From Spirochaeta africana DSM 8902 (lineage in GTDB: Bacteria; Spirochaetota; Spirochaetia; DSM-27196; DSM-8902): a stretch of DNA of 64,000 nucleotides. Made by a program: the position numbers and the translations under genes. Below the pieces are notes generated by a model, which did no database searches, was not told where the DNA came from, and saw nothing but the letters and a program-made list of their open reading frames with translations. Where the stretch lies: positions 744,001 through 808,000 of the forward strand of contig NC_017098.1 in the NCBI RefSeq assembly GCF_000242595.2, in the 5' to 3' direction. Shown in pieces: positions 29,599 through 41,302 of this stretch. The stretch's first letter is position 1, and every line of letters begins with the position of its first letter.

Positions 29599-32500
29599 AT
29601 GCCGAATAAAGAAGATCTTCAGCAGTTTCAACAACACCTCGCCACGCTTGCCGGAGAGCAGGAAGTCCTGTCCGGGGAAGGCCGCCAGCCCGAGCTGGTC
29701 GAACCGCCACGCCCGGAGGACACCGCTGCGCAGTTTGCCGATCTTCTGGACACCCCCGAACCAGCGGCCGAACCCGAGCCGACCAGCGACTATTCCGAAC
29801 AGCTGTTCCAGTCTGTGCAGCCCCCCGAGGACGACGACATGCCAGCCTCCCCGGAAGGGGAGATGCCGGGAGGGTTCGAGTTCGACGACGAGGACCCCTT
29901 TGCCGAGGCCGATCAGGGGGATCTGCCCGGCGATCTGCTGGACGACACCGGGTTCGCCGAATCCCCGGATCTGTCACCCGATGCAGACCTCGAGGACCAG
30001 GATCTGCCAGGGGACGATCTCGACGACTTCGATCTGGAAGGCTTTGCGGCACAGGACTTTGACGAAGAGGTCGATGCAAGCCCGGACGAGGGCGAGCTTC
30101 CGGATCTGGCCGATGCAACCCCCGGCGAGGCAATGGAGCCCGACGAGGCCGTAGAACCCTACGAGACAGTAGAACCCGAGGAGGCGCTGTCGGGAGAAGA
30201 GTTCGCTGCCCTTGCAGACGAGGCCGATGCAATGCCCGACGAGGCCGCAGAACCTGGCGAGGCTCCACCACCCGACGATGATTTTGGCAGCTTCGATGAC
30301 ATCGAGGATATCGCCGATATAGACGACATAGGCAGCGTAGATGACATAGACGACATAGACAGCCTGGGCGACATCGGCAGCGTAGACGAGAGTGCCGACG
30401 CCGGCGACATGCCGGCGGATGATTTTTCCACCCCTGATTTTTCCGATTTCAGTCTGGATGATATCGAGGACGAGACCCCGGCGGCAGCCCCGGGCGACAC
30501 CGGGGAGATGGAGGACTTCAGCCTGCCCGACGAGGATATGGCGGAGGCCGGCGGGGTGCAGGACACCGATCTGGACGACTTTGGTGTCGGTGACGACTTT
30601 GATGCAGCCCCGGATTTCGACAGTGTGCCGGATTTCGATGCCGGCGGGGATTTTGACAGTTTTGGCAACGAGGCCGGAGGCGAGCTTGGTGCTGTCGATG
30701 AGCTGAGCGGGTTCGATGACGACGACGATCTGGATGTCGACGAGTTCAGCCTCGGCGATTTTGGTGCCGAGTTCGGGGTGCTGGAGGATGATGGCGGGGA
30801 ACACGGCATAGAAGAAACCTTTGCCGCGGCCGACGACGATGCCGAGGTGCTGGAAGAGGCCGCCGAGGATCAGCTGCAGCTGTCGGAGGAGGATTTCTCC
30901 CGCCTGCGGCAGAACCTGCAGAAGCTGCCGCTGAACGTCAAGATCCATGTCGAGGACATCATTGCCGAGGGGCACGGCAGCCCGCGCCAGCAGCGTGCCC
31001 TGCTGGATCAGGTTATCGCCGGGGACAGCCCCCGCAATATCGCGGGCAGCGCCGGGCGGATCCTGGGCAAAAAGATCCAGGTACCACGCGGCTACGAGAA
31101 GCACACCGGGGAGGAGTTCGAGGAGCGCAAGGACTCGCTGGGCTATCAGCTGCGGAATGTAGTCTGGCCAGTGGTGCGCACCGCCCTGGTGATCATGGCG
31201 CTGACCGCAGCCTTCTCGCTGTCGGTGTACAATTTTATCTTCAGCCCCCTGTATGCCGGTCACCTCTACCGACAGGGCTACGAACAGCTGCAGGAAAACG
31301 CCTTCCCCGAGGCGGAACGCCTGTTTAACCGGGCCCGGGATTTCCATCACTCGCGTCGCTGGTACATCCGCTATGCCGAGGCCTATCGAGGCATGCACGA
31401 GTTCCAGCGCGCCCGCAGCCGGTTCCAGGATGCCCTGGATCGCTGGCCGCGCAGCAAGGATACCCTGCTTGCCTGGGGCGAGATGGAGTCCGCCGACCTG
31501 GTCAACTATCCCCGCGCCGAGGAGCTGCTGCGCAGCTACTATCCACCGGAGGCCAGTGCCCCCTACGACTACGATATCGAGCTGGCCCGCGGCGACAACT
31601 TTCTGCGCTGGGGCGAACAGGAGCCGGAGCGCTACGAAGATGCGCGCCGCACCTACGCGCGGCTGCTGGAGCGCGAGGGCTTGCAGGACATCCTGCTGTT
31701 CCGCATGCTGCGCTACTTTGTCCGTACCGACAACCTGGAAGAGGTAAACCGCCTGCGGGCCCACTTTGCCCTGACCGATCCCGAGGTGGATGGCGAGGCC
31801 TATGCCGAGCTGGGCGGCTACCTGATCGACAAGCATCTGGAAAATCCCCGACTCCACAGCCTGGACGGGGTGAATACCATCCTGCTGGATGCCCTGGATG
31901 CGGCACCGCGTCACCCGCCGGTATATTACCATCTGGCCCGGCAGAACCGTATTTCCAGCGACCGTACAGCCGAAAACCGGGCCCTGGACACCGCGATTAC
32001 CCTGTTCGAGGACAACCGTCCCCTCGGGCGGCTGGACATGGAGATGCTGCTGGACTCGATTATCCGCCGCGGCGAGAACCATGCCCGGCGCGAGCAGGAC
32101 CTGGATGCCCTGCGCTACCTTACCCGGGCTCAGGCCGAGTATGAAAACGCGATCGACCGCATGCTGATCCGCCAGCAGCCCCGCTTTGGCAGGCTCTACA
32201 ACCGGATCGGGGATATCTACTACTATCGCGGCAGCGAGTTCGAGGATGCCCTGGGGATGTTTCAGGAGGCCCGTCGCCACGGCTATGCCCCCCGCGAGCA
32301 GGACTACAAGATCGGGGTGATTCACTACCGGGCTACCCGGTTCGATGATGCCCTGGAGGCCTTTACCGATGCCCGCGGCACCTTCAGCGATGAGCGCAAC
32401 CTTGATTATGCGATGGCCAACACCCTGTTCCGTCGCGGCAGCTACAGCGCGGCCGTGGGCTACTACAGCCGGCTGCTGGAGCAGCTGCGCGCCGAGCGCC

Positions 32501-32838
32501 GGGCGATCCCGAACCTTTTTGTGGATGAAAATCCGACCCATCGGGCGCTGGTAGAGTATCTGCGCCGGGTTACCAACAACCTCGGGGTTGCCCGACTGCG
32601 GGAGTCACAGCTTACCGGCAGTCGCGAGACCTGGACCCGCGGCATCGGCAATCTGACCGAGTCGGCCGAGATCTCCGAAAACTTTTTCCGGGATCCGGAA
32701 ACCGCCGAGCGGGCCGAGATTATCAATCTGGGGTATCTGAATGTGCGCTCCAGCCTGCTGCCTGACGACAGCTTCGAGGTAGAGATATTCGACTCGCTGC
32801 TGATGGACTTCGAGGACCGGGAGTTTCGCAGCTACTGA
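29599..32838 (+). CDS. Large acidic membrane protein with C-terminal TPR domain
   Basis: 1079 residues. Residues 1-420 are extremely acidic and low complexity, rich in Asp/Glu/Pro with runs of DDI/DDID and phrases such as DDFDAAPDFDSVPDFD. Residues about 430-490 are an ordered helical cytoplasmic segment. One membrane helix (about 521-545, VVRTALVIMALTAAFSLSVY) follows. The remaining 500 residues, outside the inner membrane, form TPR-type repeats (YRQGYEQLQENAFPEAERLFNRA and others). No Shine-Dalgarno sequence stands before the ATG. A scaffold spanning the inner membrane is likely; flagellar or envelope assembly is possible but unproven. Confidence 0.8.
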   Translation: MPNKEDLQQFQQHLATLAGEQEVLSGEGRQPELVEPPRPEDTAAQFADLLDTPEPAAEPEPTSDYSEQLFQSVQPPEDDDMPASPEGEMPGGFEFDDEDPFAEADQGDLPGDLLDDTGFAESPDLSPDADLEDQDLPGDDLDDFDLEGFAAQDFDEEVDASPDEGELPDLADATPGEAMEPDEAVEPYETVEPEEALSGEEFAALADEADAMPDEAAEPGEAPPPDDDFGSFDDIEDIADIDDIGSVDDIDDIDSLGDIGSVDESADAGDMPADDFSTPDFSDFSLDDIEDETPAAAPGDTGEMEDFSLPDEDMAEAGGVQDTDLDDFGVGDDFDAAPDFDSVPDFDAGGDFDSFGNEAGGELGAVDELSGFDDDDDLDVDEFSLGDFGAEFGVLEDDGGEHGIEETFAAADDDAEVLEEAAEDQLQLSEEDFSRLRQNLQKLPLNVKIHVEDIIAEGHGSPRQQRALLDQVIAGDSPRNIAGSAGRILGKKIQVPRGYEKHTGEEFEERKDSLGYQLRNVVWPVVRTALVIMALTAAFSLSVYNFIFSPLYAGHLYRQGYEQLQENAFPEAERLFNRARDFHHSRRWYIRYAEAYRGMHEFQRARSRFQDALDRWPRSKDTLLAWGEMESADLVNYPRAEELLRSYYPPEASAPYDYDIELARGDNFLRWGEQEPERYEDARRTYARLLEREGLQDILLFRMLRYFVRTDNLEEVNRLRAHFALTDPEVDGEAYAELGGYLIDKHLENPRLHSLDGVNTILLDALDAAPRHPPVYYHLARQNRISSDRTAENRALDTAITLFEDNRPLGRLDMEMLLDSIIRRGENHARREQDLDALRYLTRAQAEYENAIDRMLIRQQPRFGRLYNRIGDIYYYRGSEFEDALGMFQEARRHGYAPREQDYKIGVIHYRATRFDDALEAFTDARGTFSDERNLDYAMANTLFRRGSYSAAVGYYSRLLEQLRAERRAIPNLFVDENPTHRALVEYLRRVTNNLGVARLRESQLTGSRETWTRGIGNLTESAEISENFFRDPETAERAEIINLGYLNVRSSLLPDDSFEVEIFDSLLMDFEDREFRSY

Positions 32839-37782: not shown

Positions 37783-37810
37783 GCCGCTCCTTCGGGGGCG
37801 GCTTTTTTTT
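37783..37810 (+). terminator. Intrinsic terminator of the beta-barrel gene
   Basis: Stem GCCGCTCC / GGGGCGGC (one G-U pair) closed by a TTCG tetraloop, followed by eight Ts. The hairpin is identical to the one at 41318-41337. Confidence 0.93.
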
Positions 37811-37817
37811 GGCGAAT

Positions 37818-37846
37818 TTGCGATTCCTGACAAATACCCATACACT
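37818..37846 (+). promoter_or_regulatory. Promoter of the lipoprotein-subtilase pair
   Basis: TTGCGA (37818-37823), 17 bp, TACACT (37841-37846), starting 8 nt after the preceding terminator. The predicted leader is about 10 nt. Confidence 0.5.
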
Positions 37847-37862
37847 CGGTGTGGGGGTAACT

Positions 37863-39236
37863 ATGTATAGATACAGATCTGGAGGTCTGCTCTGTGTGCT
37901 TTGCGCGTTGGTGATTGTATATGGCGGATGCAATCTCTTTTCAGATAATTCCGATGACGGTCCTCGTTCGCCGCGTCGGCATACCGGCACCGTGACTCAC
38001 GCCCGGGGGGGGGAGCCGGTAGCCGGGGTGCAGGTGCGCATCTATCGCGAGCAGCAGGATACCGAACCGCTGGCGGTGGAGGTCTCAAACCGTAATGGAA
38101 TTTTCCGTTTTCCCGAGGAGTTTGACGGCAGCTATTTTATTTCTGCAGTGCACAGCGGCTATGCAGCCAGTACCCTGCAGGGGGTTATCGAGGAGGGGCG
38201 CTACGATCCGGTTCCGGTTGTGCTGCAGAAACCGTTGTCACAGGACTGGCCGATCCAGGCACCCGAGCTGTCTTTTACCGATATAGAGGATTTTGCGGTT
38301 ATAGATGGGGATGTGGATTTTTCCTATGGGGTGAATTTTGCCGGTTCCCTCTATCCGCGATTTCGTTATGCCGGTCTCGGCTATGATGTGAGCGACTGGA
38401 ATCGTATCTCCAGTAATACCGATGATGTGGTGTTTGACGCTGCAACCCTGCCGACTGGTCGTCAGGTGGTACAGGTTGTTGTCTACGATTCCAACAACAA
38501 TCGTTCGGCTCGTATCATTCCGATTACCATCGCCGAGCGCCCGCATCAGAGTGTTCCGAAGCTCAGTGCCGAAGACATTGATGCTTTGTTGTTTCGGGTA
38601 AGTGGAGAAAACCTCAGGCTTTTCGATCACGGGGATGAATATACTGTTATGCTGTGGGAGGCCATCATCGCGCCACCGGATGGTACACTGGCCGACGCTG
38701 TCATTTTATCGGTTGGCAGAAGCTCCAACGGGCCGTTCCGGTATGTCGGTGAATCCCGCAGTATGGGAGCCGACGAGGTCTTCTGGGATACTACCTTTAC
38801 GGGGTATACACCAGGTGACACCCTGTACCTGCGCTTTCAGTATATCTATCAGGGGGTAACCGGTGCCGGCTACATTCAGGCTGTCCCACTGCCAGCCGCT
38901 TATTCCCTGCGGCTGGCTTCCCCAGCGGATAATGCCGTAATAGCTGGTGATGCTATCCAGTTTACCTGGGATGTGGGCGAAATCGCCGGGGGATATCCCG
39001 ATAACATTTCCCAGGAAATACTTATCTACACATACACTGGCGAGCTGGTGTTTCGCATGGCGGTGCCGGGATCTCAAACCGCTCTCTCCATACCTGTGCA
39101 TGTCCTGCCAGTGGATACCCTGCTGCGTTGGGATATCTCCAGTTGGGTTACCGGTACCTACAGTGACTCGCGCCCGAAGCCCGGGTTCGGGGCCAACAAC
39201 GGGCCGCGCTATTTTACTGTTTCGGGGGGTGAGTAA
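37863..39236 (+). CDS. Lipoprotein with carboxypeptidase-regulatory-like domain
   Basis: 457 residues. Lipobox VIVYGGC (cysteine 23). After a Ser/Asp-rich linker, HTGTVTHARGGEPVAGVQVRIYREQ to NGIFRFPEEFDGSYFISAVHSGYAAST is a carboxypeptidase-regulatory-like (transthyretin-type) beta domain. Two further beta-sandwich, Ig-like regions follow. The protein ends YFTVSGGE. The stop overlaps the next start by one base (TAATG), so it is translated together with the subtilase and is probably its surface partner, carrier or inhibitor. Confidence 0.72.
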   Translation: MYRYRSGGLLCVLCALVIVYGGCNLFSDNSDDGPRSPRRHTGTVTHARGGEPVAGVQVRIYREQQDTEPLAVEVSNRNGIFRFPEEFDGSYFISAVHSGYAASTLQGVIEEGRYDPVPVVLQKPLSQDWPIQAPELSFTDIEDFAVIDGDVDFSYGVNFAGSLYPRFRYAGLGYDVSDWNRISSNTDDVVFDAATLPTGRQVVQVVVYDSNNNRSARIIPITIAERPHQSVPKLSAEDIDALLFRVSGENLRLFDHGDEYTVMLWEAIIAPPDGTLADAVILSVGRSSNGPFRYVGESRSMGADEVFWDTTFTGYTPGDTLYLRFQYIYQGVTGAGYIQAVPLPAAYSLRLASPADNAVIAGDAIQFTWDVGEIAGGYPDNISQEILIYTYTGELVFRMAVPGSQTALSIPVHVLPVDTLLRWDISSWVTGTYSDSRPKPGFGANNGPRYFTVSGGE

Positions 39237-41302
39237 TGATTCGCGTACTATATGGGTATTTGGTTGTGTTGCTGGTGTCGGGGCTGGTGATTACCGGCTG
39301 TAACATTACCGGGTCGGGAATTTCCGGATCTGCTGCGGATCCGGGAGGCCCGGTCGAGCCTGCAAGTCCGGACGAGTACCGGATAGCCGGTGCATACGAG
39401 GTTCGCCTGCAGCCGGATGTAGCCGGTCGCCTGACAGAGGTAGCCACTGAACTTGCACAGATCCCGGGGGTATCGGTTGGCCGCCATATTGCCGTTGGCC
39501 GATCGCATTATCTCACCGCCTCCATCGATACTGCAGCCGGGCTGGCAGCCGTGCGGTCCATGCCGGATATACAGTTTGTGGAACAGCAGGTGCGCTACCG
39601 GGGTTTCAGCGAACCGGATGCGACGTTCATAGGCCGGCAGTATGCACTGGCGGTGGCTGATCTGTTCGAGGCATGGCCGCTTTCTACCGGCAGCGAGGAT
39701 GTTGTGGTGGCGGTAGCCGATACCGGCATCCGGGGCAGCCATAGTGATTTTGCTCATGAACGATTTGTCGATGGCTGGAACAGCATCGCATCTGCGGTAA
39801 TACCAGCTGGCGACGATGCCGACGATCAGGGGCATGGGACCCATGTGGCCGGTATTATCGGTGCCGATGGCGCCAATAGCGCTGGCATAGCCGGGGCAGC
39901 CTGGAATGTCACGCTTATGGACATAAAGGTACTTGGCGGCGACGGCAGCGGAACCTCGGCTGGTATCGCTGAGGGTGTGGTGCAGGCGGTAGAGAGGGGG
40001 GCTGACATCATCAACATGAGCCTGGGTGGTCCGATGCCCAACGTGCTCATGGCCGAGGCCATTGCCTACGCCCATCAGAGCGACGTTCTGGTGGTGGTTT
40101 CGATGGGCAACAATAATGACCGCCGGCGCCAGTTCCCGGCCTCCTATCCCGGTGTAATGGCGGTTGGTGCAACCGATGGGAATGAGGAGCGTTCTACCTT
40201 CAGCAGCATGGGGGGGCATATGTGGATAACTGCTCCGGGAACCCGAATATTCTCCACCTTGCGTAATGGGTCGCATGGTTATATGAGCGGGACATCCATG
40301 TCGGCGCCGCTGGTTGCCGGGGTCGCCGCACTGGTTCGATCGGTTAACCCGGAGCTTACTGCACCACAGGTGATGGAGGTTATGCGTGACACTGCCCTGG
40401 ACTATGGCACCGCAGGATTCAACGAGGAGTTCGGCTACGGCATGGTTCAGGCTGCAGCAGCGGTTCAGACTGCCCTTGATCTTGCAGACCCGGAGAGTCA
40501 GGCGGTGGACACCCTCGGCAGCCTGCGGGTTCGCTTCAGCCACGATAGTATGGAAATCTTTATGGGAACCCCGGTGCTGCTTATTGACCAGTCAACCGGA
40601 AAGGTGCGCTCTGTAGCCATGATCGGGCAGGGAGAATTCAGCCAGGAGTGGGACGATAATCAGCCTGGCGATACCTGGTTTCAGCATATTCCGGCCGGGC
40701 AGTACCAGCTGGTAATGAATTCCGGGATGTCTAACCGGATAAGTCAGTCGGTAGAGATTACTCCCGGGGAAACAATCACCCAGGCCATCGATATAGAATT
40801 CCTTGATGCTGTGCCGATCGGGGTAGCAACCACCCCTGCGTACGAAGAGTATCTTGAATGGGAGTATGCCGATGTACGGCTGCGGATGTATCTGGGGGAT
40901 GATCCTGAGCCATTCGCAGACGAGAGCTACCGTGAGGGACCGCCGTTGGGTAGTCTCCTGGATGCGTTCCCGGTCTACACTCACGGTTTTGACCCCGAAG
41001 GAGAACCGCTGTATATCCAGCTTTCCATCGTCGATGACCCGGTGGATGAGTTTACCACACCCGAGCTGGGTTGGAGCAAGGGCGCGATCACCCTGCAGGT
41101 AGACTACGAGCAAGGGGTAAACGATACACTCAGCATGTGGTACAGCCTTGAGCAGTATCCACGTGATTACTGGGATTCGTATACCAGCCGCGAGGAAGCC
41201 TATCCGCTTGTTCTGGGCAGCAGACTGCCAGTCCATCTGACCCATCCTGACAATCCTGAGGGGAGCGGATCCGAAGAGGTCTGGTTCAAGCTGGCATTCT
41301 GA
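39236..41302 (+). CDS. Subtilisin-like serine protease lipoprotein
   Basis: 688 residues. Lipobox GLVITGC (cysteine 22), an inhibitor-like propeptide (about 45-125), then the S8 peptidase domain with the full triad: D162 in AVADTGIRGSH, H200 in GHGTHVAG and S354 in GTSMSAP, plus the oxyanion region VVSMGNNND. After about residue 420 comes a C-terminal region of about 260 residues with beta-sandwich character. The enzyme should be anchored in the envelope and may act on surface proteins or external protein. It ends with a terminator 16 nt on. Confidence 0.92.
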   Translation: MIRVLYGYLVVLLVSGLVITGCNITGSGISGSAADPGGPVEPASPDEYRIAGAYEVRLQPDVAGRLTEVATELAQIPGVSVGRHIAVGRSHYLTASIDTAAGLAAVRSMPDIQFVEQQVRYRGFSEPDATFIGRQYALAVADLFEAWPLSTGSEDVVVAVADTGIRGSHSDFAHERFVDGWNSIASAVIPAGDDADDQGHGTHVAGIIGADGANSAGIAGAAWNVTLMDIKVLGGDGSGTSAGIAEGVVQAVERGADIINMSLGGPMPNVLMAEAIAYAHQSDVLVVVSMGNNNDRRRQFPASYPGVMAVGATDGNEERSTFSSMGGHMWITAPGTRIFSTLRNGSHGYMSGTSMSAPLVAGVAALVRSVNPELTAPQVMEVMRDTALDYGTAGFNEEFGYGMVQAAAAVQTALDLADPESQAVDTLGSLRVRFSHDSMEIFMGTPVLLIDQSTGKVRSVAMIGQGEFSQEWDDNQPGDTWFQHIPAGQYQLVMNSGMSNRISQSVEITPGETITQAIDIEFLDAVPIGVATTPAYEEYLEWEYADVRLRMYLGDDPEPFADESYREGPPLGSLLDAFPVYTHGFDPEGEPLYIQLSIVDDPVDEFTTPELGWSKGAITLQVDYEQGVNDTLSMWYSLEQYPRDYWDSYTSREEAYPLVLGSRLPVHLTHPDNPEGSGSEEVWFKLAF

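Follow-up and report, generated by a model that had tools for sequence, protein, structure and literature searches.

The flagellar collar protein FlcA of Spirochaeta africana has a long acidic arm, predicted to be cytoplasmic, that is kept among its relatives

The gene at 29599-32838 of the window, the 64,000-nucleotide stretch of Spirochaeta africana DNA analyzed here, is very probably flcA, encoding a peripheral component of the periplasmic flagellar collar that is anchored in the inner membrane. The protein is an already known collar component, FlcA (BB0326 in Borrelia burgdorferi), and not a new family. What is new here is the long acidic arm of FlcA, which is predicted from sequence to be cytoplasmic and is kept across the whole group. 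With this identification an apparent orphan becomes a named collar component, and the first description of the protein is shown to be sound. The features discussed below are:

29599..32838, + strand: flcA coding sequence, 1079 aa (open reading frame call; matches to NCBIfam FlcA_CTERM and FlcA_NTERM)
29599..29715, + strand: conserved N-terminal motif, residues 1-39 (FlcA_NTERM; column counts over 75 relatives; AlphaFold2 helices 4-17, 20-26 and 39-50)
29749..30873, + strand: disordered acidic arm, residues 51-425 (pLDDT about 35; residues 41-430 have 0 K/R and 37% D+E)
30739..30786, + strand: membrane-proximal short arm motif DEFSLGDFGAEFGVLE, residues 381-396 (read by eye; loose pattern in relatives)
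30886..31068, + strand: predicted four-helix cytoplasmic domain, residues 430-490 (AlphaFold2 models)
31159..31242, + strand: single transmembrane segment, residues 521-548 (hydropathy; inside helix 514-565; K/R richer on the N-terminal side)
31303..32757, + strand: periplasmic TPR solenoid, residues 569-1053 (Pfam TPR; AlphaFold2; best fold match 8EBF)

Identity and architecture of the protein

Both NCBIfam models for FlcA matched the protein over their curated cut-offs. FlcA_CTERM scored 697 bits against a cut-off of 300 over residues 432-1071 and was matched along its whole length (1-646 of 646), and FlcA_NTERM scored 39.2 bits against 28. The latter is matched from model position 1 by residues 1-39, which, together with a Pro at position 2 in 67 of 75 complete relatives, supports the start codon. 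A sequence-only reading of the window had proposed an undescribed spirochaete envelope or flagellar scaffold. The scaffold is borne out; as both curated models are passed, the label "undescribed" is wrong. FlcA is encoded once in the S. africana genome (one contig, 3,285,855 bases); 12 further matches lie far under the cut-off and fit cross-hits to TPR proteins. A chance open reading frame was rejected, residues 432-1079 aligning with 66 other relatives (alignment A1) at 15-38% identity.

The genes around flcA code for a prolyl-tRNA ligase, an acyltransferase-like protein, an aminotransferase and a sugar nucleotidyltransferase. None has a flagellar function, so the neighbors lend no operon support to a flagellar role, and in lying outside a flagellar neighborhood the S. 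africana gene differs from B. burgdorferi flcA. We searched the genome for four collar and motor proteins, FlbB, MotB, FliF and FliL. The collar base protein FlbB scored 243.7 bits against a cut-off of 110, and MotB and FliF were also over their cut-offs. FliL passed the Pfam cut-off and fell under that of NCBIfam (155.5 vs 218). A new, undescribed envelope component without relation to the collar is extremely improbable: only TPR repeats exceed the Pfam cut-off over the full protein and no flagellar gene adjoins, but both curated FlcA models, the nearest solved fold (a spirochaete TPR protein) and the presence of FlbB in the same genome all contradict it.

According to passages of two B. burgdorferi studies, FlcA sits at the collar periphery touching FliL and the stator, 16 copies of its TPR solenoid make up the outer, S-shaped or turbine part of the collar, and it helps seat and stabilize the stator units via FliL and MotB (PMC11750108, PMC8609358). 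In the same passages the C-terminal domain of FlcA interacts with FliL, and FlcA interacts with MotB (PMC11750108, PMC8609358). The flcA mutant is described in a passage of PMC11750108 as non-motile, with defects that concern motility, collar and stators. The S. africana protein resembles B. burgdorferi FlcA in having the same two NCBIfam domains, one membrane helix, a C-terminal TPR part and a long N-terminal region. Relatives in family f7 have an acidic arm too, with 239-255 residues before the helical domain against a longer arm (about 375 disordered residues) in S. africana. Unlike the f7 arms, that of S. africana has no Lys or Arg.

AlphaFold2 modeled residues 432-1079 with a mean pLDDT of 91.9. 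In the full-length model, residues 1-50 formed helices (pLDDT 62-78) and residues 51-425 had no structure (block-wise pLDDT about 35). Residues 430-490, between the arm and the membrane, make up a four-helix unit, and a 52-residue helix (514-565) encloses the membrane segment. Like all 91 sequences counted, the S. africana protein has a single hydrophobic segment; hydropathy and the model agree with the one membrane helix that had been read from the sequence. The proposed order of arm, membrane helix and TPR domain stands as well, with two amendments: residues 1-50 are predicted to be helical, and residues 430-490 to form a separate four-helix domain instead of belonging to the arm. For this domain no Pfam match was found up to E 10 with the S. 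africana copy or with that of the relative L012, and the copy in L066 gave one sub-threshold match, to RsmI_C (14.5 bits vs 27).

Pfam TPR matches and the model place the solenoid at about residues 569-1053, in agreement with the TPR domain first proposed. Among solved folds it comes closest to 8EBF, which covers the TPR domain at the C-terminal end of Leptospira interrogans LIC11990 (Foldseek E 8.6e-10; VIA-align Z 23.0 with 18% identity and rmsd 5.0 over 478 residues). Since the second VIA-align row still reaches Z 20.6, the 8EBF score is in part common TPR geometry. The sequence profile likewise ranked LIC11990 first among natural proteins (E 1.2e-38), with only three engineered consensus TPR proteins ahead of it, making it the best natural match of the TPR part by both profile and fold. 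The likeness is limited by the low identity, and the solved structure is of the C-terminal domain only, placing the arm outside the comparison.

FlcA and FlcB are grouped with PflA and PflB by predicted structure in a passage of a preprint (PMC11870540). Similar to PflB, the stator scaffold of Campylobacter, FlcA is a TPR scaffold that is anchored in the membrane and adjoins FliL and the stators. The antiparallel beta pair that defines PflB in a passage of that preprint (PMC11870540) is missing from the models of S. africana FlcA: of the PflB-type combination of a transmembrane motif and a beta pair in the TPR solenoid, we found the membrane helix and no strands, both models of the protein being free of beta strands. 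PflB had no entry among the VIA-align matches listed, which says nothing on relatedness.

Composition and patterning of the acidic arm

The long acidic arm noted in the sequence-only reading was confirmed, residues 41-430 containing 92 Asp and 53 Glu and neither Lys nor Arg in 390 positions. To place this in the genome we took the window and 19 other 20-kb stretches, in which 355 ORFs were greedily called. FlcA ranked first both for its longest K/R-free run (396 residues) and for its maximum acidic content per 200 residues (40.5%). The runner-up, a TPR protein, reached 127 residues and 30.5%. Acidity as a genome-wide trait was rejected, as the sample averages 11.9% D+E and 10.0% K+R. The second most acidic ORF of the sample (L125:4944-8273, - strand; G000:C1 about 3044944-3048273) encodes a 1109-residue TPR protein that has a long, acidic, Pro/Gln-rich C-terminal part and is not FlcA.

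To determine how widely the arm is kept, we started from 91 loci and set aside L081, which has masked letters, and 15 others whose 5' end is open; the 75 complete relatives that remained represent 23 family-level groups. Arm starts were set by pattern, or by hand for L012, L029, L046, L071, L072, L092 and L102, and the arm was taken to end 100 residues ahead of the best-scoring hydropathy window. The region ahead of the helical domain measures 239-932 residues (median 433), and the part after the membrane is a steady 506-596 residues. All 75 arms are acidic, with a D+E fraction of 0.19-0.45, a K+R fraction of 0-0.12 and a computed pI at or beside the lower limit of the method. Arm length varies fourfold, and the sequence hardly aligns among relatives. 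In the loci of family f24, including L078, the arm consists of numerous, nearly identical units of about 17 residues that contain LPEDLDNDKVSAD, and its length tracks repeat number among close relatives.

A second set, drawn from named genome contigs and possibly sharing species with the first, had the gene in 80 of 80 loci, 18 of them open at the 5' end or with little arm. In the 62 complete loci the region is 213-571 residues long, with a median D+E fraction of 0.28. Four of the 62 fail the N-terminal pattern: L146, L152 and L165 carry it a few residues further in, since too early a start had been picked for them, and in L143 the contig cuts the gene short.

The N-terminal motif is conserved at individual positions among the 75 relatives, with M1 in all 75, P2 in 67, L or I at position 7 in 70, F10 in 49, G18 in 47 and E20 in 47. 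The family pattern, MPxxxxLxxFxxxLxxxGNE, is that of an amphipathic helix. In families f29, f39, f46 and f47 the protein starts differently.

Hydrophobic residues in the arms are not placed at random. We compared 90 arms, all loci but L081, with shuffles. Adjacent hydrophobics occur at 0.47 times the shuffled level (only 2 of 90 arms lie above their own mean), hydrophobics spaced by three at 1.91 times (84 of 90 arms), and the pattern h[DE][DE]h at 2.79 times (69 of 90 arms). The second set repeats this patterning, with ratios of 0.43, 1.82 and 2.79, respectively. It is not shared by acidic stretches in general: we rejected that explanation after 39 other acidic 60-mers from 29 ORFs of this genome gave 0.89, 1.21 and 1.21. 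The DDI/DDF repeats first noticed in S. africana are likewise real: DD[FIL] occurs 12 times in its arm against 3.6 +/- 1.7 in composition-preserving shuffles, none of 500 reaching 12.

Close to the membrane, a motif like DEFSLGDFGAEFGVLE was found in 51 of 64 class-level relatives with a loose pattern (shuffles: mean 2.9, maximum 10) and in 24 of 64 with a strict one (mean 0.19, maximum 2); as these sequences had been read before the pattern was drawn up, the counts are descriptive. The strict form was absent from the sampled members of seven of the 13 class groups (f3, f6, f7, f11, f13, f14 and f16) and present in only 12 of 39 in f5. In the second set the motif occurred in 39 of 74, a count made without a shuffle control.

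The CheY-binding peptides of the FliM and CheZ kind have motifs with which the DDLL-like stretches of the arms can be compared. A related pattern, [VIL][DE][DE][LIF][LIMF], is enriched when all arms are taken together, with 38 occurrences vs 20 +/- 5. We do not claim a CheY-binding reading of these stretches, the pattern occurring zero times in the S. africana arm.

Distribution of FlcA in the phylum

Spirochaete homologues, on which the first reading had staked its proposal, are plentiful: FlcA_CTERM matched 233 of 296 genomes of the phylum at E<=1e-20, 136 of them over the curated cut-off, and none of 14 control genomes. A profile built from 67 relatives matched 270 of 296 at E<=1e-12, a count that includes cross-matches to other TPR proteins. 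FlcA_NTERM at E<=0.001 was limited to 107 of the 296, with one match in each. FliF is present in 274 of 296 genomes (E<=1e-20), and none of the 12 genomes of family f12 has FlcA or FliF.

Among 20 listed FliF-negative genomes (22 in all), 13 lack FlcA and seven have it (G063, G021, G047, G114, G124, G184 and G202). Six of the seven assemblies are 73-88% complete. G063 is 99% complete and has FlcA, with FliF not found at E<=1e-20; an assembly gap is possible. In three genomes of family f10 (G146, G237 and G265) FliF is present but matches less strongly than it does in relatives (best E values from 1e-54 to 1e-63), and even the broad profile found no FlcA. These bacteria possibly have a motor without a recognizable collar.

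What the arm may do

No description of a cytoplasmic arm was found in the literature passages on FlcA/BB0326 at hand. In those passages the interaction work used the C-terminal half only (PMC8609358, PMC11750108): the FLAG-tagged construct spans residues 360-931 (PMC8609358), and the construct in PMC11750108 is a C-terminal one, "FlcAc". Given the span of the tagged protein, the arm could have escaped study.

Our tentative proposal, a best guess that is slightly less likely than not, is that the arm is a flexible cytoplasmic tether. The TPR part would be fixed in the collar by its scaffold role, as in Borrelia, and the disordered arm would then hang on the cytoplasmic side, where the N-terminal helix and the repeated acidic-hydrophobic motifs may hold one or more cytoplasmic proteins close to the collar. 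Candidate clients are the stator protein MotA, the C-ring and FlhF/FlhG-type factors. By a scaling law, some 375 disordered residues presumably span roughly 20 nm. Set against the collar width of 79 nm given in a passage of PMC8609358, such an arm could plausibly reach the stators or the C-ring. As a docking tether, the arm would connect the collar with the cytoplasmic face of the motor, and this might matter for the way in which spirochaetes load and hold sixteen stators. A wider version, which we consider rather unlikely, would make the arm a client hub throughout the phylum, its docking helix, acidic-hydrophobic motif array and membrane-proximal motif extending from the static collar toward cytoplasmic motor or positioning proteins and giving the collar a second, cytoplasmic half.

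The main alternative is that the arm is a mere electrostatic spacer or polymer brush, with sixteen negative chains per motor excluding cytoplasmic material from the stator ring. This is a real possibility, if a somewhat doubtful one. Constant acidity in arms of 239-932 residues with poorly conserved sequence is consistent with it, as are the near-identical tandem repeats of the f24 arms, which would be expected if composition alone matters. A spacer does not, however, account for an N-terminal motif conserved residue by residue, or for a hydrophobic spacing that is non-random in two sets and not general to the acidic stretches of the genome.

The nearest functional parallel of the arm may be, by analogy, the acidic cytoplasmic region of HubP/FimV. 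In passages of PMC12918733 that region of HubP is largely unstructured, its size and its number of repeats differ between close relatives, as they do in the FlcA arm, and the periplasmic or the acidic cytoplasmic part of HubP/FimV is suggested to place the chemotaxis system. HubP/FimV, like FlcA, has a long acidic cytoplasmic region of variable length on a single-pass membrane protein (PMC12918733). This is a shared property and not descent. The arm could by this likeness be a polar landmark, placing the motor or chemotaxis arrays rather than stators. We consider this unlikely, for the topology of FlcA is reversed, its TPR part being periplasmic and following the membrane helix, and the mutant defects given in a passage of PMC11750108 are in motility, collar and stators. 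Searches of Pfam and NCBIfam to E 1 listed neither the periplasmic LysM domain nor a FimV model, and where HubP/FimV has a cytoplasmic C-terminal FimV TPR, the TPR of FlcA lies beyond the membrane helix. Membership of FlcA in the HubP/FimV family was rejected for want of both domains.

Binding of cations (e.g. calcium) or basic proteins by charge alone, as put forward in the sequence-only reading, is improbable: 145 acidic and 0 basic residues at positions 41-430 would suit it, but no cation-binding family was matched in Pfam or NCBIfam, and the scarcity of neighboring hydrophobics and the spacing by three go beyond charge. The hydrophobic-acidic pattern speaks for short hydrophobic docking motifs no less than for charge alone.

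Elsewhere in the window, at 37809-41302, a weak PrcA-like gene (under its cut-off) is followed directly by a gene for a subtilisin-family protease; though reaching no curated cut-off, the pair resembles the components of dentilisin.
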